Part shown: in pieces, positions 31,372 to 47,893 of the stretch | Position numbering within the stretch: position 1 is the stretch's first letter | Layout of the letters: each line of letters opens with the position of its first letter | NCBI RefSeq assembly: GCF_003625485.1 | Contig: NZ_RAIR01000004.1 | Location: 248,001-312,000 of the forward strand | Direction: 5' to 3' | From: Butyrivibrio sp. CB08 | GTDB lineage: Bacteria; Bacillota; Clostridia; Lachnospirales; Lachnospiraceae | Length of the DNA: 64,000 bases | Notes under the pieces: model-generated | Seen by the model: the letters and a program-made list of their open reading frames with translations, nothing else | What the model was told of the DNA's origin: nothing | Databases searched by the model: none | Translations under genes and position numbers: made by a program

Positions 31372-34300
31372 TTAGAGCATCTCCTTCTCAAAGGTAACTG
31401 TATAGTCCTTGCTATTAGGATTAGCATTCCATTTTTCCATTATCCTGTCAGCAGCGGCATTAGCTTCTTCAAGACCAGCTCCAGTCATCATTACAAGGAT
31501 GTTTCCATGGCCATCTGGAGAATAGATGTCCGTGCTTCCAAGGACTTCTTTTAATATGTCATAGAACTCCTCCAAAACATCGCTTCTTATTTCCCCTGAA
31601 ACCGGACCCTGAATATTGTAGCGAAGAAGAGCTGCATCGCTTACTCCGCCCTGCTTCATCCTCACAAGGATCCTGTAGACATCAAAGATCTTGTCACCCT
31701 CAGCTCTGTAGGCGGTGTCGCTGCCACCTCTTTCGCTGATGACCTTCCTGAGCTCATCAAGACCCATAATGTATTCTGTATCGTAGCGTGAGCCAGCAGT
31801 TAAGCTGTCTTCATTGTAGAGAAGACAGTCGTGCTTACCAGCATTCTTGACCATGTAAAGTGCTCTGTCTGCTTTCTTGAACAGAAGCTCAAAGGTCTCT
31901 TTTTCTCCGTCCTTGTTGACTTCAACAGCTCCTATGGATATTCCAAGGGGAATCGCCATATCTTTTCCCATGATCTTATGGGCAACCTTTAATATCTCTT
32001 CATTATAATGCTTACTCTTTAGCTTAAGACCTTCCTCATCAAGATCCTTAAAGAAAGCCACAAACTCATCACCACCGGTTCTGCAAAGGGCGTCATCCTC
32101 GCCACTGGTTCTCTTTAAGATGCCAGAGAGCTCAATAAGGATCCTGTCGCCCATGTCGTGACCATAAATATCGTTAACAGATTTAAAGTTATCAAGGTCA
32201 AAGATAGCCAGTATGCCTGTCTCAGTTTCGCACAGAGGCTCCAGTATCTCTTTTGCCCCTCTCTTGTTGTAAAGACCTGTAAGAGGATCGTTGGTGGCTT
32301 CCTCCTGAAGCCTTTCCACATTGCTGAAATTCTGAAGGATTCCGCTTATGAGCCAGCCAATATACATAACAAGGAAGGCCACAACAGCTGCCAGATACAG
32401 CTTAAAGTATGACCTCTCAAAGAGCTGCGACTCCTTATGTATAGGAAATACCTCTTCTCTAATTACGTTAGTTCCCGACGTATCAAGGACTTCAACGTGA
32501 AGCATGTAGTCGCCGTAGGGCAGGTTCGTGAAGGTAAGGGATCTCATGTCGGTCTGATTGCACCAGATACCTTCGTCCTCAATACCCTCAAGATATATGT
32601 GCAAAAGCGGATCTGAAAAAGAGAAATTCAAGACCGCCACATCAAACTGGATACGGCTTGATGTAGCAGGGATAGTATATTCTCCATTCTTCTCCTGAAT
32701 GACTTCATCGCCAGCCTTAAGCTCGAAGAGCCTGATGTCATAGTCATTGTTGAAAGAATCGTAGTCGGTGGTGGATATCCTTCTGACTCCGTTAGTACAG
32801 GACAGATACAGTTTATCTCCGCTTAAAACATAGTTGGAGCCTGAAGTTATGGAAGTGTGAAGGCCTCTGCTCCTGTTGAGGACCAGATAGTTATACTCTC
32901 CGTCCTCCAAAAGGTCTTTTTCATCAATAACATAGATTCCATTGCTGGACAGAACCCAGGCCTTACCAGCATCAGATATGAACACGTCATAGTTGTTGCT
33001 GTAAGGGAAGGCATCAAGGCGCTTTATCTTTTGTCCGTTGTAATAATACAGCGCATTGCTGGTGACAAAGATATATCCGCCTTTACATGGAACTATCTTA
33101 AGTACCACCATGGTCTGAAGATTCTCTTCTTCGTCCAGCGTAGCTACCAGCTCTCCGTTTCTGATAACGTAAATTCCACCGCCGTCAGAACCCGCATAGA
33201 TAACGCCGCCAGCGCCTTCCTGAATGCACAGGATCTGCTCTGTGATACCGTCGTACTCTCCAAGGGTCTTAACTACTGCATTGCCCTGGATATATGAAAG
33301 TCCGGTATTTGACGCCGCAAGGATCTGTCCGTCGGAGAGCTCATAGGTTAAGTTGAACACATCTCCTTCAGCGCCTTTGTTTTCCTGATTGAATGTGACA
33401 ATACTGCCATCCGGACGCATTTTAACAACACCTGCTTCACCATAGGTGGAGAACCAGATATTGTCTTTGCTGTCACACATAATGTTCTTGATAAGGACGT
33501 TTCGCAAAACCTCAGGATGCGGAATCGGCACAGAATAATAGGTCTTAAGATCTATGGTCACAAGACCGGTACTGGTACCGGCATAGAGAATGCCTCCCCA
33601 TACAAGGACGCTGTTTACAACGTTTGAAGGCACATCGGATCTTGCAAAGATATCCTCAAATGGGTTCCATGAGTATTTCTTGATTCCAAGCTTATTAGAT
33701 GCAAACCATACATTTCCCTGATAATCGGTAATGACGTCAACGATGGAGCTTGCGAAATCATCGGTGGTAAGGGTAGAGAGTGAACCTTTATCTGACAAGA
33801 AGCCAATTCCGTTTTCGCAGCAAAGGAAAGCTCCCTTGTAATCTCTTGAATAAAGGATCTTGTTGTAGTAGGACAGATCATCTGAGTACTGCTTGGACAT
33901 AAGGTCTGTCTTACCTTCGCTAAAGAACAGTCTTCCTGTGAAGTTGGTTGAACTACCTACAATATAGTTACCTTCGCTCTCAGCAGCCACGGTGGTGAAG
34001 TCTCCGCCAAGAACATAGATAAGTCTCTTGTCGCTAAATACAACAATGCTTCCATCACTTCTTATACCTGCCACAGTGTCTCCGCTGCTGGCAAGTTTAT
34101 TTATTCCGTAATAACTGTTTCCGCCAAAGCTCTCAACAGACATATCAAGGCCTATCATGCACAGCTGGGTGGCTGTTCCAACATAGATATTTCCCTCGTA
34201 GTCCTCTGCAATGGTTTTAATAACGTTAGAGGACAGACCCTCCTCAATGGTAAAGAATGTAATATCTCCTGATTTTACATCGTAGCAGGCAACTCCGTTG

Positions 34301-35154
34301 TCGTTGGTTCCTATCCACATGCGGCCTCTGCTGTCCACTAAAAGCTCTGTGACGTTCTTGATCCTGTCGTCAATATCCATGATCCTGAATCTGTATCCGT
34401 CATAGATGTACAGACCGGTATAGGTTCCAGCCCACACGTAGCCATCCTCTGTCTGGGCCAGGGCGTTTACCTCAACAGAATCAAGACCACTGTCTGCGTC
34501 ATACAGAACGCCGGCATATTCTGCACCAAAGTCATAAGCCTGTGCATTTATCGCAAAGCAAGGAATCAGAAGACAGATGCACAGCGCAAGCACAATGCCC
34601 CTCTTCTTAAGGATCTTTAATACCCTGTCAGCAAATATCTTTATGGCTATTGCGATCAGAAGGCTCACTGTCTTGTCCGGAATATCAACAAAGGCTTCTC
34701 CTATAAATGAAGTGAGAAGAGGAACCTGAATATCCAAGGAGATCATGTCCATAAGGGCATCACCCCAGATATTCCCAGTTCTTCCGTTGTACATTATTAA
34801 GTTAAGTGGTGTGGAAAGAAGTGCAGATACGATACCTGTAAGTACCGCTGCAGATGTGCATTTAAGATAGCTCAGATTAGTCCTTGGGTAAAAGAGTCCT
34901 ACCGTAATACCAATTCCAGCAGAAACCAATAGATATGGGAATGCCATCACATCCCCGGCAGATGCAATAATGTTGGCAACAACACCACAAAAAGCGCCAA
35001 CAAAGGGCCCATACCCTATTGCTGCCACTATTGTTCCTACCGCATCAAGCCAGATCGGCAGTTCCAGCTTAAGTGCCAGATTTCTGCCCAGGACATTTAT
35101 GCAAATACAGAAAAGAATTACACCCCAGCTCTTCCAGGATCTAAGCTTCCTCAT
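31372..35154 (-). CDS. Large membrane receptor: ECF-like domain, beta-propeller, Y_Y_Y domain and GGDEF output
   Basis: The 1260-residue protein starts with about 200 residues of six membrane helices resembling an ECF transporter S component (PIWLDAVGTIVAAIGYGPFVGAFCGVVANIIAS). A further membrane or signal-like helix (LALCICLLIPCFAINAQA) leads to a two-component-regulator propeller (about 215-780; repeats such as DGYVWAGTYTGLYIYDG, GRMWIGTNDNGVACYD), a Y_Y_Y domain (about 810-890), a membrane helix near 915-935 and a GGDEF domain with RTGGDEF at 1027-1031. The RxxD inhibitory site is absent (GEDD in its place). The last 140 residues look like a second, degenerate GGDEF-like domain. It should make c-di-GMP in response to an outside ligand. 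Confidence 0.9.
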   Translation of the reverse strand: MRKLRSWKSWGVILFCICINVLGRNLALKLELPIWLDAVGTIVAAIGYGPFVGAFCGVVANIIASAGDVMAFPYLLVSAGIGITVGLFYPRTNLSYLKCTSAAVLTGIVSALLSTPLNLIMYNGRTGNIWGDALMDMISLDIQVPLLTSFIGEAFVDIPDKTVSLLIAIAIKIFADRVLKILKKRGIVLALCICLLIPCFAINAQAYDFGAEYAGVLYDADSGLDSVEVNALAQTEDGYVWAGTYTGLYIYDGYRFRIMDIDDRIKNVTELLVDSRGRMWIGTNDNGVACYDVKSGDITFFTIEEGLSSNVIKTIAEDYEGNIYVGTATQLCMIGLDMSVESFGGNSYYGINKLASSGDTVAGIRSDGSIVVFSDKRLIYVLGGDFTTVAAESEGNYIVGSSTNFTGRLFFSEGKTDLMSKQYSDDLSYYNKILYSRDYKGAFLCCENGIGFLSDKGSLSTLTTDDFASSIVDVITDYQGNVWFASNKLGIKKYSWNPFEDIFARSDVPSNVVNSVLVWGGILYAGTSTGLVTIDLKTYYSVPIPHPEVLRNVLIKNIMCDSKDNIWFSTYGEAGVVKMRPDGSIVTFNQENKGAEGDVFNLTYELSDGQILAASNTGLSYIQGNAVVKTLGEYDGITEQILCIQEGAGGVIYAGSDGGGIYVIRNGELVATLDEEENLQTMVVLKIVPCKGGYIFVTSNALYYYNGQKIKRLDAFPYSNNYDVFISDAGKAWVLSSNGIYVIDEKDLLEDGEYNYLVLNRSRGLHTSITSGSNYVLSGDKLYLSCTNGVRRISTTDYDSFNNDYDIRLFELKAGDEVIQEKNGEYTIPATSSRIQFDVAVLNFSFSDPLLHIYLEGIEDEGIWCNQTDMRSLTFTNLPYGDYMLHVEVLDTSGTNVIREEVFPIHKESQLFERSYFKLYLAAVVAFLVMYIGWLISGILQNFSNVERLQEEATNDPLTGLYNKRGAKEILEPLCETETGILAIFDLDNFKSVNDIYGHDMGDRILIELSGILKRTSGEDDALCRTGGDEFVAFFKDLDEEGLKLKSKHYNEEILKVAHKIMGKDMAIPLGISIGAVEVNKDGEKETFELLFKKADRALYMVKNAGKHDCLLYNEDSLTAGSRYDTEYIMGLDELRKVISERGGSDTAYRAEGDKIFDVYRILVRMKQGGVSDAALLRYNIQGPVSGEIRSDVLEEFYDILKEVLGSTDIYSPDGHGNILVMMTGAGLEEANAAADRIMEKWNANPNSKDYTVTFEKEML

Positions 35155-35465: not shown

Positions 35466-35726
35466 TTATTTGTTGCTGCCCTGTAAGAACTTCTCCATAT
35501 CAGCTACTGCTGATTCCTCGTCAGTTCCCTCAGCTATAACTGTAACTGCCTCTCCAGATGTGAGGTTTAAAGTCATCATTCCCATGATGCTCTTGGCGTT
35601 GACCTTTTTAGACTGAGCCTCAATATGAACTGTGCTCTCGTACTTGCTGGCAAGCTGAACAAGTTCAGCTACTGGTCTTGCCTCAAGACCTCTTGGCAGC
35701 TTGATTTCGATAGATTTTGTGATCAT
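35466..35726 (-). CDS. crh: Crh-like HPr paralogue with Glu at position 15 and Ser46 kept
   Basis: The 86-residue HPr fold reads GLEARPVAELVQLASKY where HPr has GLHARPA, so the EI phosphorylation site His15 is Glu15. The regulatory serine is intact in VNAKSIMG (Ser46). Bacillus Crh has Gln15 and also follows whiA (yvcL), so by both sequence and position this is a Crh-type regulator. It should be phosphorylated by HPr kinase (hprK at 39461) and act with CcpA, but cannot carry PTS phosphate. The symbol is used in that functional sense. Confidence 0.88.
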   Translation of the reverse strand: MITKSIEIKLPRGLEARPVAELVQLASKYESTVHIEAQSKKVNAKSIMGMMTLNLTSGEAVTVIAEGTDEESAVADMEKFLQGSNK

Positions 35727-39460: not shown

Positions 39461-40408
39461 TTACTCGTCGTCATCCTCGTCGCTTCTCCTGCGTGCAAGA
39501 GAATTCTGAACTCTGTTGTAGAGCTCCTGAGCTGCGTTGTAGCCCATTGCCTTCTGTCTGTGGTTAACCGCAGCAGACTCGCAGATAACTGCAAGGTTTC
39601 TACCTGGACGGATAGGGATCCTGTGGCACACTACCTTGTTTCCAAGATACTCTGTGTACTCCTCCTCAAGTCCAAGTCTGTCGTACTCTTTATCCTTGTC
39701 CCAATCCTCGAGCTTTATTACAAGGTCGATGGTCTGGGTCTCTCTTACGCTTGATACACCGTATAGGGTCTTAACATCGATGATACCTACACCTCTCATC
39801 TCGATGAAGTGCTTGGTAATATCAGGTGCAGAACCGATAAGTGTCTCCTCACTTACTCTTCTGATCTCAACAACGTCGTCTGATACAAGACGATGTCCTC
39901 TCTTAATGAGCTCGATGGCCGTCTCAGACTTACCAATTCCGCTCTCACCTGTAATAAGAACGCCGACACCATATACATCAACTAAAACGCCGTGGATAGA
40001 GATACATGGTGCAAGCTTAACATTAAGCCATCTGATGATCTCTGCAGTGAATGAAGAAGTTGACTTCTTGGTGATAAGAACCGGAACCTTCTCCTCAACT
40101 GCGATCTTTACAAAAAGTGGATCTGGAGTTAAGTCTCTGCAGAACACAACTCCAGGGATATCAAAGGAAAGGAACTCTCTGTACATCTGCTCTTTCTTGT
40201 TGGCAGGAAGAGATTCCATATATGTATATTCAACGAATCCGATGACCTGAAGTCTGGTGGCCTCGAAGTGCTCGAAGTATCCAGCCAGCTGAAGAGCAGG
40301 TCTGTTAATATCTGGCTGGCTTATCCTGATCTTTTTGATATCAACCTCAGGTGTAAGATTCTCCAGCTTTTGTTTCTCGATAATGTTCTTTAAACTTACG
40401 CTAGACAT
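39461..40408 (-). CDS. hprK: HPr kinase/phosphorylase
   Basis: The 315-residue protein has the N-terminal DRTGG-like domain and a C-terminal kinase with Walker A GESGIGKSETAIELIKRGH, the basic residue site RLVSDDVVEI, and the family signature MRGVGIIDVKTLYGVSSV. It phosphorylates Ser46 of HPr/Crh at high fructose-bisphosphate and reverses this with phosphate. The target Ser46 is present only in the HPr-like protein at 35466, not in the one at 42482. Confidence 0.96.
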   Translation of the reverse strand: MSSVSLKNIIEKQKLENLTPEVDIKKIRISQPDINRPALQLAGYFEHFEATRLQVIGFVEYTYMESLPANKKEQMYREFLSFDIPGVVFCRDLTPDPLFVKIAVEEKVPVLITKKSTSSFTAEIIRWLNVKLAPCISIHGVLVDVYGVGVLITGESGIGKSETAIELIKRGHRLVSDDVVEIRRVSEETLIGSAPDITKHFIEMRGVGIIDVKTLYGVSSVRETQTIDLVIKLEDWDKDKEYDRLGLEEEYTEYLGNKVVCHRIPIRPGRNLAVICESAAVNHRQKAMGYNAAQELYNRVQNSLARRRSDEDDDE

Positions 40409-42481: not shown

Positions 42482-42739
42482 TTACAGATTATCCTTAAGA
42501 TATCTGTAAAGTGCGTCAGCCGCCTGGTCTTCATCTTCTCCCGCAAATGTTATGGAAAGAGTCTGACCGCACTTAACCCCCAGCCCAACAAGGCCAAAGA
42601 CGTGCTTAACATCAGTCTCCTGTCCATTTCCCTTCGCTGTAATGGTAGAAGAAAAGCTCTGTGCAAGCTTTACTAGTCCCCCTGCAGGAAGTGCATGCAC
42701 TCCCTCAGGGTCTGTAATTACATAATCAATTATCTTCAT
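42482..42739 (-). CDS. HPr-family phosphocarrier of the PTS operon, His15 kept, Ser46 replaced by His
   Basis: The 85-residue protein has EGVHALPAGGLVKLAQSF, with His15 present but Arg17 changed to Leu, and DVKHVFGLVGLG where HPr has KSIMGVMSLG, so position 46 is His instead of Ser. It can therefore still receive phosphate from enzyme I but should escape HPr kinase. Its ATG overlaps the stop of the dehydrogenase (ATGA). As the last gene of the PTS operon it is probably a dedicated phosphocarrier for that system. Confidence 0.88.
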   Translation of the reverse strand: MKIIDYVITDPEGVHALPAGGLVKLAQSFSSTITAKGNGQETDVKHVFGLVGLGVKCGQTLSITFAGEDEDQAADALYRYLKDNL

Positions 42740-43998
42740 ATCTCCACACCAAAGTGCTCAAACAAAATCTTCTCAGCTTCCGGATTCCAAAGTCCTGCGT
42801 GAGCTTTGCAGCTCTCATCAAGCTTCTTGAACAGTGGATCTGTCTCTCCGAGCTTACCAAAGTCATCGATTGCTGTAAGTGGCATATCAATAAGTGTATA
42901 GATAAGCTTCTTGCCACCTGGGATGTTTGGCAGGTTGCAGGTTGTTTCTGCAGCTGCATCCAGACCGCCTACGTGTGTGACCATAACTGATGGGTTGATC
43001 TCTCCCTTAGCTGCAAGGTCAAGAGCCTCTAAGAGATCGTCATTGTTACCACCTGTGGTTCCAAGAATATGTGTGCTTGTATAGTGAGCATTGTAGAGAT
43101 TGATCTCTGACTTGAACTGATTGTCTGTAGGTCCTGCAAAGAAGTTCATGCAGCCGTCAAAAGCAAGGAGTCTGTCTCCCATCTCAGCAACGCTTCTTAC
43201 TGGAACATAAACAAATACATCATCGTAGCCATGGCCCTCAGTGATCTCCATGAGCTTTTCTTCTGCATCGCTCTCTGAAGAATTAAAGTAGATGAGCTCT
43301 ACTCCCTTTTCTTTGGCAAACTCAGGGCTTATTACAGATGCTGCTCTCTCAAGCTTCTTGTCATCAAGATCTGTAACTACGATCCTCTTTGGCTTATTCT
43401 CAAATCTAAGGCCATAGCTTACCGCTCCAAGACCCATTGGTCCGCAGCCGCCCATGATAAGGATATTTCCACCCTCCTTGGTTCCCATGGCATGATTGTA
43501 ATTCTGTTTGTTGGTGTGGTAGTTAGCGTGGTAACCACCGATAATGCAGCTCATTGGTTCTCCAAGAGATGCCTGGTAGTAGCTCTCTCCGTTATAAGGA
43601 AGAAGTGCATCCAGCTCCATTACTTCGTGAGGCATGATGCAGTAGGTAGCATCTCCGCCGCAGAAACGATAGGAATATCCAGGGGAATCAAGCTTACCCT
43701 GGTAGTTAAGTGCTGGCTGAAGAGCCCACTTATCTCCTACCTTGTACTTATCCTTCCACTTAGAACCTACCTCTACGATTACGCCTGAGCACTCATGTCC
43801 TGTGATGATAGGATTAACATCGATATCCTGAGGTGCTCTCTTATGCTTCTTGCCCTGCTTGGCAAGCTTGTAGGTGGACATGCAGATGCTGTCACTTACT
43901 ACCTTAACTAATATCTCATCGTCCTTGATCTCAGGGAGCTCAAACTCCTCAAGTCTAAGGTCCATTTCTCCATACATTCTTACTGCTCTGGTCTTCAT
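42736..43998 (-). CDS. Zinc-dependent dehydrogenase, L-sorbose-1-phosphate reductase-like
   Basis: The 420-residue medium-chain dehydrogenase starts MKTRAVRMYGEMDLRLEEFELPEI with a GGAG site eight bases upstream; an in-frame ATG at 44025 is less likely. Zinc-site residues appear in SDSICMSTYK and GHECSGVIVEVG, and the nucleotide site is MGGCGPMGLGAVSYG. The phrases CMNFFAGPTDNQF and HILGTTGGNNDD match my memory of SorE of the sorbose operon. SorE reduces L-sorbose-1-phosphate to glucitol-6-phosphate. No mannitol-1-phosphate dehydrogenase is present, so the PTS may take up sorbose or another sugar (inference). Confidence 0.82.
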   Translation of the reverse strand: MKTRAVRMYGEMDLRLEEFELPEIKDDEILVKVVSDSICMSTYKLAKQGKKHKRAPQDIDVNPIITGHECSGVIVEVGSKWKDKYKVGDKWALQPALNYQGKLDSPGYSYRFCGGDATYCIMPHEVMELDALLPYNGESYYQASLGEPMSCIIGGYHANYHTNKQNYNHAMGTKEGGNILIMGGCGPMGLGAVSYGLRFENKPKRIVVTDLDDKKLERAASVISPEFAKEKGVELIYFNSSESDAEEKLMEITEGHGYDDVFVYVPVRSVAEMGDRLLAFDGCMNFFAGPTDNQFKSEINLYNAHYTSTHILGTTGGNNDDLLEALDLAAKGEINPSVMVTHVGGLDAAAETTCNLPNIPGGKKLIYTLIDMPLTAIDDFGKLGETDPLFKKLDESCKAHAGLWNPEAEKILFEHFGVEI

Positions 43999-43999
43999 A

Positions 44000-44425
44000 T
44001 TATTCTTCTCCTTCAAACAGGTCACTTATCTCCTGCTCATTTAATGTCAGCAGATGGTCAACACCTGCCTTGTCTGAAAAGGTCATGGCTATCTTCTGGA
44101 GAACGTTTAAATGCTCATCTCCAACTGCTGCTATTCCAATGATGACCTTCACCTTTTCAGGCGCACCCCAGTCCTGGCCCTCTGGTACTGTCATAAGCAC
44201 AAGGCCAGTCTTTTTTATATGTCTCTTAGCATCCTCAATACCGTGAGGAATTGCTACTGCATTCCCAATATATGTGTTAAATACCTTCTCTTTATCCAGC
44301 ATCGCCTGAGTATAATACTCGTTGGTATACCCCTGAGATGAGAATATCTCTCCAATTCTTCTTATGATATCTTCTTTCTCCGAAGGCTCCTGGTTTATAA
44401 AGATATTTCTGGTTTCTAGAATCAT
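44000..44425 (-). CDS. PTS EIIA component, mannitol/fructose type
   Basis: A 141-residue EIIA-2 domain with the phosphorylated histidine in GNAVAIPHGIEDAKRHI. It receives phosphate from HPr and passes it to EIIB. The start at 44425 (MILETRNIFINQEP) is preferred because GGAGGG lies six bases upstream; the ATG 18 bases earlier includes this site. Immediately downstream of the PRD regulator. Confidence 0.93.
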   Translation of the reverse strand: MILETRNIFINQEPSEKEDIIRRIGEIFSSQGYTNEYYTQAMLDKEKVFNTYIGNAVAIPHGIEDAKRHIKKTGLVLMTVPEGQDWGAPEKVKVIIGIAAVGDEHLNVLQKIAMTFSDKAGVDHLLTLNEQEISDLFEGEE

Positions 44426-44439
44426 GTGTCCCTCCAATT

Positions 44440-46476
44440 TCAAAGACTTCCCAGCTGCTCGCTAAAGTAAGCTTTTAATATTTCCTGCAGCTTGTCCTGA
44501 ACCATTTCCTCATTACCGCTCTTTATGGCATCAAGGAAATCTGAATCCTCGATGATGGCGCTGGATACTCTGCCCAGCATTTCGGCATTCTGCTGCCTGT
44601 TGTCGTCCACTGGCATTGCCATGCACAGCGCTGCCCTTATTCCAGATAACTTTTCATCTGTAAAAGAGCTACCGGCCTCTATTCCAGCAGTGACTATCTG
44701 ACACTCTTTTACCGCCTTGCTCCTGCAATGGAAAAGAGCAAGTCCAAGTTCCGGGAAGAGCTGGCTCATCACCTGCTCCCTGGCCATGATATCTGCTGTA
44801 AGTACGGCTGCTGCCTTGGATGTATCCGTTATGTCAGCGGATAGAATCCTTATCAGGGATTCAAGGGTCATATCTTCTGAAACTACCAGATGATGATACC
44901 TTCTGATAATACCCTTTATCCTGTTAATAATGTTGTTGATCTCATCAAGCTGTCTTGTGAAATCATTGTTCTCCTGCTTGGCAGGCATTGATGCGTATTC
45001 GTCGATCTTTACGCTGATCTGTAAAATATCCCTCTGTGTTATGAGAGGATTGACAAGGCAATAATCAACTCCAAGGTCATCCACGCCTATGCTTGAAATA
45101 AAGAAGTCCGTCCTTGAAACCACGTGTCCGTTTATCTCATCTATTCCATAGGCCTTAAGTACGATATCCCAGTCCGCAAAATGACTCTTTAGCTTGGCCA
45201 TCATAAGCTGGGCCACACCAAAGCCGCTGGCACATATAACCCCGATAGTAACTGTGCGCTTTTTCCTCTTGCGGGAGTCGATCTTTTCCCTGGCTGCGCC
45301 AAAGTGCATGGCAAGATAGCCAACCTCTGCGTCTCCAGGAACAAGTCCTGTCTTATCTGTAATGACCTTTGCCGCCCTCTGACAATCTGCGTAGATGTCA
45401 GGGTACTCGCTTTTTATCTCAGACAAAAGCGGGTTGCTGATGGCCATGTCGTTCTTCATTCGATAGAGCGCCGGCTCAAGATGTACCATAAGGCCTCTTA
45501 TGAAATCCTCTTCATATCGAAGCTCTCTGGCAAAATCAGGATCCATCACATCTATCATTCCATTGATGATCCCCATCAGTTCCTCGGTCTGAATGCCGCT
45601 CTCTCTGATGGCATCACTGCTGTAATTAAGCTTGGCTCCCTTGATGTGGAGCAGAATATTGTTTACCTCTGACTCGGGAATGTCGATATCGAACTCTTCC
45701 TCTAAAGCCTTCGCAATGTTCTTGGCGGTATCGTAACCGTTGTCAAACCTTGCGTCGTAGGTCTCCATGGATACCAGTTCTCCCTGCTTTATCCTCTCGA
45801 CTGCAACTGCGAGGTGGACAAGAAGCCCCACATATGCATCGTTGGTAAGAAGGTGCAGGTATGGTTCCTGAAGTCTCTCCAGAACCTTTTCCACGTCAAC
45901 CAGTATCTCCTCATTCATAAGAAGATATATGTTGTCATCGGCATTCTTGAGCTTTTCGCTCTTCATGTTCTCGGTGACAAAACGCTGCATGGCAGTTCTG
46001 TAGCTCTTTTCATTGCCAGAAAGAGCTATTCCATAGCCTGGCTTTCTGATGATATCAAGGTGACATTCGCTGGCCCAGTCGCTTATGGCCTCCAGGTCAT
46101 TGCTTATGGTTGCTTCACTGACACCAAACATATCACTGTAGTAAAAGAGCTTTTGAGGCTCTCTGTTTCTTAGGAGCTCAAGTTTAAGAAGTTCTCTTCT
46201 CTTTTCCTTATCAGAAACAATTTGGTCAGAATGAGCTTTGACAGCCTCAAGGAGCTTTGCCTTGTTTTCTGCAGTACCCTCGATCTGGCTGCCCTCACCC
46301 TTCTTTCTTACAAGAGTCAGATCATATCCCTGAAGAATGCCTGCGATATAATCTGCCTCTCTTAAAATGGTACGCTTACTCACACCCAGAGCATCAGCGA
46401 CCTCACTGTCTGTCGCCGGCTGCTCTGCGTTTAGCAAATAAAGGATTATTTGTCTAATACGTGGTGTAAGTTCCAT
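44440..46476 (-). CDS. MtlR/BglG-type PRD regulator with EIIB and EIIA domains
   Basis: The 678-residue protein has an N-terminal helix-turn-helix (ATDSEVADALGVSKRTILREADYI) plus a second wing region (SDMFGVSEATISNDLEAISDWA), two PRD domains (about 185-400, with EVGYLAMHFGAA), a EIIB-like domain with Cys in GVICASGFGVAQLMMAKL, and a C-terminal EIIA-like domain (LFPELGLALFHCRSKAVKE). This is the layout of MtlR-type DNA-binding activators controlled by PTS phosphorylation. Within the operon it should tie transcription to transport. Confidence 0.93.
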   Translation of the reverse strand: MELTPRIRQIILYLLNAEQPATDSEVADALGVSKRTILREADYIAGILQGYDLTLVRKKGEGSQIEGTAENKAKLLEAVKAHSDQIVSDKEKRRELLKLELLRNREPQKLFYYSDMFGVSEATISNDLEAISDWASECHLDIIRKPGYGIALSGNEKSYRTAMQRFVTENMKSEKLKNADDNIYLLMNEEILVDVEKVLERLQEPYLHLLTNDAYVGLLVHLAVAVERIKQGELVSMETYDARFDNGYDTAKNIAKALEEEFDIDIPESEVNNILLHIKGAKLNYSSDAIRESGIQTEELMGIINGMIDVMDPDFARELRYEEDFIRGLMVHLEPALYRMKNDMAISNPLLSEIKSEYPDIYADCQRAAKVITDKTGLVPGDAEVGYLAMHFGAAREKIDSRKRKKRTVTIGVICASGFGVAQLMMAKLKSHFADWDIVLKAYGIDEINGHVVSRTDFFISSIGVDDLGVDYCLVNPLITQRDILQISVKIDEYASMPAKQENNDFTRQLDEINNIINRIKGIIRRYHHLVVSEDMTLESLIRILSADITDTSKAAAVLTADIMAREQVMSQLFPELGLALFHCRSKAVKECQIVTAGIEAGSSFTDEKLSGIRAALCMAMPVDDNRQQNAEMLGRVSSAIIEDSDFLDAIKSGNEEMVQDKLQEILKAYFSEQLGSL

Positions 46477-46486
46477 TGCGTCTCCA

Positions 46487-47893
46487 TTAAATACTAGCTT
46501 TTAATTCCTGTGCCAGCTGATCATACTCTGGTGCTGACATGAAGTTATTGATAGTGATGACTCTGGCATTAGGAGCACTGTTTCTTGCTCTTCCTGCAAG
46601 GTCCTGATGTGTTACAACGATCTGAGCTTCTGCTGGGATCTCAGATACTGAAGCGTGCTTAACTTCGATATCAGATCTTCCAACTTCTGCAAGCTTCTTC
46701 TTAAGAACTGTTGCTCCCATTGCTGATGAGCCCATTCCTGCATCACATGCAAATACGATGTGCTTGATCTCAGAAGCGCCAGCTACAAGTGTGTCAGCTA
46801 CTGTCTTAACTTCGCTTGCTGCAACACCCTTGCTCTGTGCCTTCATCTCTTTCATCTGAGTTGTTGAATCCTCAAGGCTCTGCTTTGAGTTTGAAAGCTT
46901 GATGATAGGAGCTGCGATAACGAATGAAACAGCTGCTGCAACAACTACTGAAAGAAGTACCATGAAGGTTGATCCCTTAGGAGCCATTCCAACATAAGCG
47001 ATGATTGAACCAGGTGATGGAGGTCCAGCAAGGCCAAGCTTGAAAGCTGTGTTGAAGATCATAGCTGCAACTGATCCGCCGATTGTTGCAAGTAAAAGAA
47101 GTGGATTCATAAGTACATATGGGAAGTAGATCTCGTGGATACCACCAAGCAGATGTACGATAAGTGCTCCAGGAGCTGAATCCTTAGTAACCTTATCCTT
47201 AGCAAAGAGCCAGTATGCTACCAGCACACCAGTACCTGCGCCAGGGTTTGTCTCAATCATGTAGAAGATTGACTTGCCAGCTGTTGCAACCTGCTCTGCT
47301 CCAAGAGGAGTGAAGATACCATGGTTGATAGCGTTGTTAAGGAAAAGAACCTTAGCTGGCTCAACAAATACTGATACAAGTGGAAGAATGTTGTTGTCAA
47401 CAAGTACTGCAACACCACCATTAAGTACTGCAAGTACGCCGCCCATGAATGGGCCAATTACATAGTAGCCAATGATTGCAAGAAGTAGTCCAAGGATACC
47501 AACTGAGAAGTTGTTTACAAGCATCTCGAAGCCAGTAGGGATCTTGCCCTCAACGGCCTTGTCAAATTTCTTGATAACCCATCCTGCAAGAGGTCCTGCG
47601 ATCATAGCACCCATGAACATTGTGTACTCTGTTCCGCAGATGACACCAATTGTCATGATGGCGCCCATTACTGCACCCCTCTGTCCGCCGACCATCTTAC
47701 CACCCTGATAAGCAATAAGAACTGGAAGAACGTAAGTAAGCATTGGGCCTACGATTGAACTAAGTGCTGCATTTGGAAGCCAGCCTGTCTCGATGAAAAG
47801 AGCTGTAAGAAGTCCCCAGGCTATGAATGCACCGATGTTTGGCATAACCATTCCGCTCAGGAATCTACCAAAACTTTGTATTTTTTCTTTCAT
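46487..47893 (-). CDS. mtlA: PTS mannitol-family EIICB permease
   Basis: The 468-residue protein has a EIIC membrane domain of about eight helices (GRFLSGMVMPNIGAFIAWGLLTALFIETGW; FLNNAINHGIFTPLG; IETNPGAGTGVLVAY) and a C-terminal EIIB domain with the phosphorylated cysteine in HIVFACDAGMGSSAMGATVLKKKL. It resembles MtlA lacking the fused EIIA. The sugar may not be mannitol because the neighbouring dehydrogenase is SorE-like. The ribosome site is AAGGGG. Confidence 0.92.
   Translation of the reverse strand: MKEKIQSFGRFLSGMVMPNIGAFIAWGLLTALFIETGWLPNAALSSIVGPMLTYVLPVLIAYQGGKMVGGQRGAVMGAIMTIGVICGTEYTMFMGAMIAGPLAGWVIKKFDKAVEGKIPTGFEMLVNNFSVGILGLLLAIIGYYVIGPFMGGVLAVLNGGVAVLVDNNILPLVSVFVEPAKVLFLNNAINHGIFTPLGAEQVATAGKSIFYMIETNPGAGTGVLVAYWLFAKDKVTKDSAPGALIVHLLGGIHEIYFPYVLMNPLLLLATIGGSVAAMIFNTAFKLGLAGPPSPGSIIAYVGMAPKGSTFMVLLSVVVAAAVSFVIAAPIIKLSNSKQSLEDSTTQMKEMKAQSKGVAASEVKTVADTLVAGASEIKHIVFACDAGMGSSAMGATVLKKKLAEVGRSDIEVKHASVSEIPAEAQIVVTHQDLAGRARNSAPNARVITINNFMSAPEYDQLAQELKASI

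Follow-up and report, generated by a model that had tools for sequence, protein, structure and literature searches.

In the textbook picture of Firmicutes, a single HPr couples phosphotransfer via His15 to the energy signal that HPr kinase/phosphatase (HprK) places at Ser46, and thus a fed cell brakes its own phosphotransferase system (PTS). The window studied here, i.e., the whole analysed stretch of 64,000 nucleotides from Butyrivibrio sp. CB08, contains, within the operon of one sugar PTS, an HPr gene whose product carries histidines at both positions, 15 and 46. This raises the question of whether such a protein can serve as a phosphocarrier that HprK does not inhibit, and whether it is an isolated case.

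The HPr gene, its operon and its genome

The HPr open reading frame occupies positions 42482–42739 on the minus strand, running from 42739 to 42482 with the stop included, and encodes 85 amino acids. The product scores 73.3 bits against the Pfam PTS-HPr profile (PF00381, cut-off 23) and 61.8 bits against TIGR01003 (cut-off 47.9). Its AlphaFold model has a mean pLDDT of 97.8, and HPrs lead the comparison of this model with the PDB, the TM-score to E. coli HPr (4xwj, 1poh) being 0.91. Since residues 6–81 of E. coli HPr align with the window HPr without gaps, the residue numbering is direct, and the key residues are His15, Leu17, Pro18, Lys45, and His46. The translation and the alignment bear out the combination of His15 with His46 reported in the initial annotation, which missed the replacement of the active-centre Arg17 by leucine. 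Hence the protein has the fold, the family profile, and the His15 of an HPr, and it lacks both Arg17 and the Ser46 of an HprK-regulated Firmicutes HPr. Moreover, the translation contains no serine or threonine between Thr42 and Thr60.

The HPr gene is the last in a minus-strand series formed, in this order, by an MtlA-like EIICB (46487–47893, passing the NCBIfam mannitol PTS cut-offs), an MtlR-like regulator with PRDs (44440–46476, assigned by profile matches and residue reading), an EIIA of the mannitol/fructose type (PTS_EIIA_2; 44000–44443, a TTG-started frame), and a zinc-dependent MDR dehydrogenase (42736–43998, Pfam ADH_N and ADH_zinc_N), whose frame shares 4 bases with the start of the HPr gene. 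All expected phosphorylation sites are in place, namely, His67 of EIIA (numbered from the TTG start), Cys383 in the IIB part of the EIICB, and, in the regulator, His221, His277, His332, and His391, the latter two within the best PRD match, as well as Cys415 in a stretch that is EIIB-like by eye and His583 within an EIIA_2 match; we take these to be the phosphorylated residues by comparison with what is known of MtlR and PTS proteins.

The HprK gene (39461–40408, minus strand, above the TIGR00679 cut-off) lies about 2 kb beyond the HPr gene. At a distance of 6.8 kb from the latter, an HPr-like protein encoded at 35466–35726 on the minus strand has, according to profiles and residue reading, Glu15 and Ser46; thus, the description of the PTS-operon HPr as the mirror image of a Crh-like protein stands. 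A gene that by eye resembles whiA lies upstream of the Crh-like gene. In the same region, at 31372–35154 on the minus strand, a 1260-aa open reading frame combines, by eye, a membrane N-terminus, propeller-like repeats, and a GGDEF-like stretch. The cre-like operator pattern WTGNAANCGNWNNCW has 0 matches in the 64-kb window, against 0.98 expected by chance, a difference of little weight.

The PF00381 search of the window's genome yielded six HPr-family matches. Two of these proteins, L001 and L003, keep His15, Arg17, and Ser46, and L003 adjoins the sole enzyme I found in the genome; the open reading frame upstream of L003 is by eye a fructose-type EII. The PF02896 profile has two matches in the genome, this enzyme I and a 963-aa frame taken as a PPDK-like protein. 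As L001 and L003 carry both sites, the window's genome does not divide the HPr functions between two proteins, and the split over two paralogues suggested in the initial annotation fails here, although it does occur in five other genomes (see below). Two further matches are short and comprise the Ser46 half only: L005 (1456–1686, 76 aa) and L006 (1435–1695, 86 aa) have K-S-I-(M/L)-G as around Ser46 and no His15 half. Weak short matches of this kind make up 36 out of 138 and 39 out of 132 PF00381 matches in the two genome samples described below, L005 and L006 being the only ones read; such Ser46-half proteins are possible further HprK substrates.

A probable dedicated phosphocarrier and the alternatives

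We consider it probable, with considerable reservations, that the window HPr is a PTS-dedicated phosphocarrier from a Ser46-less subfamily that HprK cannot inhibit. Enzyme I would place a phosphoryl group onto His15, from where the HPr would deliver it to the EIIA encoded in the operon and probably also to the PRDs of the neighbouring MtlR-like regulator. As position 46 is not serine, HprK would be unable to turn this HPr into a poor phosphoacceptor; the proposed escape from HprK follows from the lack of Ser46 and of any nearby serine or threonine, and it holds for the known route of inhibition. The phosphotransfer route could then stay open when both conventional HPrs are phosphorylated at Ser46, so that the sugar would still be taken up and the operon perhaps still be induced through the PRDs.

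In order to place the protein among its relatives, we scanned for them with 14 orthologues, obtaining 596 pattern matches, of which 556 were confirmed, and analysed the best 80 by similarity to the window protein; the set is therefore not random, and the search patterns did not span position 46. Among these best 80, His15 is present in all and Ser46 in none; position 46 is occupied by Arg (34), Lys (25), His (nine), Ala (six), Thr (three), Asp (two), and Ile (one), and HprK phosphorylation of the three Thr46 proteins is possible. Two of the 80, L062 and L070, contain in-frame stops, and L062 is the one with Ile46. This contig belongs to Butyrivibrio sp. FCS014, where the locus appears on three contigs (L041, L042, L062), the HPr frame and the neighbouring genes being broken on one of them, which is probably redundant assembly rather than biology.

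In the loci retrieved, members of the subfamily are usually encoded close to enzyme I or to PTS genes of the fructose/mannitol type. Among the 67 non-Butyrivibrio loci within the best 80, enzyme I lies within 3.5 kb of the HPr in at least 51, fruK is near it in at least 40, fruA in at least 36, and mtlA in at least four; at least 60 have one or another of these genes, and seven have none. These counts are lower bounds owing to contig ends, and the family names were checked on eight proteins. Four loci (L051, L065, L079, L081) combine an MtlA-like EII with a Lys46 HPr beside enzyme I, and three of them have nearby a dehydrogenase of the window's kind; the identity between the window dehydrogenase and the dehydrogenases of such clusters is 56–64%. 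In L051 (2875–9992) and L079 (2995–9990, labelled by similarity) an MDR dehydrogenase, a mannitol-type EII, 1-phosphofructokinase, the Lys46 HPr, and enzyme I are clustered, which may hint at a pathway that converts mannitol 1-phosphate into fructose 1-phosphate.

The point at which the Butyrivibrio proteins depart from these relatives is position 17. Arg17 is retained in 67 of the best 80 relatives and replaced by Leu in 13, all of them from Butyrivibrio, three from one assembly. According to a modelled complex, in E. coli numbering, Glu67 of enzyme I pairs with Arg17 of HPr, and Glu84, with Lys45 and Ser46 (PMC3724859). All the Arg17 mutations studied in E. coli HPr weakened its function with enzyme I, and S46D lowered the phosphoacceptor activity approximately 2000-fold (PMC5320558); likewise, HPr phosphorylated at Ser46 is described as a poor enzyme I substrate (PMC12445079). 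These effects of mutations at Arg17 and of S46D are the main doubt about the efficiency of the Butyrivibrio HPr, two orthologues of which have Asp46 together with Thr18, and the phosphotransfer efficiency of the window HPr is uncertain due to R17L. Phosphotransfer as its only function, as initially claimed, is thus plausible but weakened here.

The enzymes I themselves were compared at the partner positions; five partial ones were omitted, and an enzyme I of genome G049, which has two HPrs close to it, counts in both groups. Those encoded beside non-Ser46 HPrs have Glu at residue 67 in 49 out of 52 and Asp at residue 84 in 47 out of 52, and so Arg or Lys at position 46 of the HPr could face an acid; those beside Ser46 HPrs have Glu67 in five out of ten and Glu84 in eight out of ten. 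All four enzymes I from three Butyrivibrio genomes and one related genus have Pro67, Lys68, and Ser or Thr at 84. The Butyrivibrio HPr is thus altered at positions 17 and 46, for both of which the partner residues are altered in its enzyme I; since the conventional HPrs of the same genomes retain Arg17, the altered enzyme I is at most permissive for Leu17.

These residues lend some weight to a different, rather unlikely reading, in which the protein is a regulatory HPr: owing to R17L it would accept phosphate poorly from enzyme I and would exchange it mainly with the local EIIA and MtlR-like regulator, as a local buffer or sensor of this PTS. Leu17 in all 13 Butyrivibrio loci among the best 80, the Asp46/Thr18 pair, the signs of purifying selection described below, and the co-occurrence with a PTS operon that holds a PRD regulator are all compatible with such a role. 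It fits less well with the retention of Arg17 in the 67 other loci, at least 51 of which have enzyme I nearby, and the altered partner residues of the Butyrivibrio enzyme I may tolerate Leu17.

A less probable explanation is that the window HPr is a redundant copy adding little, the mannitol-type PTS being served by L001 and L003. These two proteins could indeed serve the same PTS, one of them being encoded beside the sole enzyme I found, and this also counts against a dedicated carrier. A conventional HPr serving this PTS beside an inactive local one would contradict the initial annotation; conventional HPrs do exist, and nothing shows the local one to be inactive. What weakens redundancy is conservation within the genus. 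An orthologue is present in 12 out of 37 Butyrivibrio genomes (G000–G036), own included, with 51–100% identity and His15 invariant. MtlA was found (E 1e-60) in 13 of the 37; the 24 genomes without MtlA also lack the HPr, and all 12 MtlA genomes whose contig covers the place of the HPr have it, the remaining one, G029, having an mtlA contig that stops short of this position. The dN/dS ratio is 0.07–0.19 in the seven computable out of eight orthologue pairs, with dS reaching 1.9, near saturation, in the widest pair; these values suggest purifying selection on the gene. A degraded gene is ruled out by these values together with the co-occurrence with the mannitol PTS.

Finally, His46 as a second phosphohistidine site, also suggested initially, is highly improbable because the residue is not conserved: nine of the 12 Butyrivibrio orthologues have it, but the other three have Lys (one) or Asp (two), none has Ser, and His occurs in just nine of the best 80 relatives.

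His15 and Ser46 across the order

The broader distribution was surveyed in 48 genomes of the order, Lachnospirales, that are at least 95% complete, own included. PF00381 gave 138 matches, distributed over 44 genomes; the reading covered the 102 that are full-length, which come from 43 genomes, and 36 short matches without the His15 half were left out. The His15 class was defined as His15 plus Pro18 or Arg17. Out of 60 His15 HPrs, 47 have Ser46 and 13 do not (His, Lys, Gly, Asn, or Arg instead), and all 42 proteins with no normal His15 centre, three of them unaligned at position 15, have Ser46. One or more His15 HPrs lacking Ser46 occur in 11 out of 43 genomes; HprK, checked in seven of these (G000, G039, G050, G051, G071, G076, G087), is present in all seven. 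In G071, G076, and G087, all full-length His15 HPrs lack Ser46, which is kept on a separate protein without His15, and G050 has a sole Asn46 HPr and one short match. In 14 of the 43 genomes (e.g., G043, G064, G082), a Ser46 protein is accompanied by no full-length His15 HPr; judging from the sequences, the serine signal is apparently retained there without a PTS carrier.

In this sample, enzyme I was found in the 1.5–2 kb flanks of 31 HPr genes, 26 with Ser46 and five without, the latter being five out of the 13 non-Ser46 HPrs. As most HPrs adjacent to enzyme I keep Ser46, pairing of non-Ser46 HPrs with enzyme I is not an order-wide rule.

A second sample comprised 22 genomes chosen for carrying the subfamily; 91 out of 132 PF00381 matches were read, and 41 (39 short, one partial, and one with stops) were left out. 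The script counted 35 proteins with His15 and Ser46, 32 with His15 and without Ser46, and 24 with no normal His15 centre, all 24 having Ser46; L288 (EHDNP) is by eye of the Tyr15 type with a chance histidine, and fairer counts are therefore 34 for the first class and 25 out of 25 for the last. A His15/Ser46 HPr is also present in 20 of the 22 genomes. The complete split recurs in two more genomes, G094 and G104, whose completeness is not stated, and the Ser46 protein of G104 has Tyr15. This protein (L219, Intestinibacillus massiliensis) is by eye like the His15-bearing L214 and L215, possibly an independent loss of His15. In the flanks, mostly of 1–1.5 kb, enzyme I accompanies 24 out of 32 non-Ser46 HPrs vs. 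10 out of 35 Ser46 HPrs.

HprK was found in all 29 genomes tried, including the five with a complete split; the B. subtilis control gave no signal in this search, so that misses would not prove absence. No LacI-type protein reached the TIGR01481 (CcpA) cut-off in any of six genomes, a cut-off that just two out of 14 control genomes pass, so that CcpA may nevertheless be present.

A tree of 204 HPrs was built from 80 columns, with columns 15, 17, and 46 removed; 87 of its 194 inner branches are open. The window HPr falls into a starred set whose 12 rows are without exception Butyrivibrio orthologues. The 46-row group around it consists entirely of His15, non-Ser46 proteins, with a weak SH-aLRT value of 77, and 10 more non-Ser46 rows fall outside this group. 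On the best tree, the non-Ser46 label requires at least seven changes, two of them on supported branches; thus, more than one loss of Ser46 is probable, with a single large group of such proteins. The lack of His15 is associated with retention of Ser46 (Fisher p 0.0006 for the 102 order-sample sequences, kinship ignored); the phylogeny leaves only four independent pairs (five on unsupported branches) for a sign test, and with so few pairs we treat the association as a clade-level pattern.

Relation to known HPrs and implications

With Firmicutes HPr (ptsH), the window HPr shares the family, the fold, His15, Lys45, the hydrophobic residues following position 46, and the PTS context, while differing in the lack of Ser46, in Leu17 instead of Arg17, and in its location in the operon of one sugar. 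NPr of the nitrogen PTS is also an HPr paralogue with His15, but its structural similarity to the window HPr is weaker (5t17, E 1.6e-3), and the latter scores 27.6 bits against an NPr cut-off of 119. The Bacillus Crh, an HPr-like protein without His15 (PMC3526391), is likewise an HPr paralogue keeping one of the two sites, but with the opposite pattern, as the window HPr retains His15 and has lost Ser46. FPr and other HPrs of enterobacteria and their relatives are tied to one sugar PTS (PMC2405797), and the window HPr resembles them in its tie to the PTS of one sugar; unlike the FPr fusion, however, it is a free 85-aa protein in an HprK-bearing genome, with the EIIA encoded by a gene of its own. 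The accessible part of PMC2405797, which treats HPr evolution and names His15 and Ser46, describes no Ser46-less HPrs in HprK-bearing Firmicutes, and no publication on such proteins was found among titles and beginnings of abstracts, in a search whose coverage excludes most subscription journals.

Judging by sequence and tree, the window HPr is the Butyrivibrio branch of the largest non-Ser46 subfamily seen, and the split in its genome is only partial. More generally, and tentatively, the two jobs of HPr could have become separated in part of the order, with HprK-blind His15 carriers on the one hand and Ser46 proteins lacking a normal His15 centre on the other, completely so in some species, and HprK signalling would then be uncoupled from the PTS flux. 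If this is true, sugar uptake would be free of the Ser46 brake, and the two phosphorylations would no longer oppose each other within a single molecule. The occurrence of Ser46-less HPrs in HprK-bearing genomes means that the brake should not be assumed in an order with many gut and rumen bacteria, and the genomes with a complete split would be natural experiments on the purpose of the coupling between His15 and Ser46.
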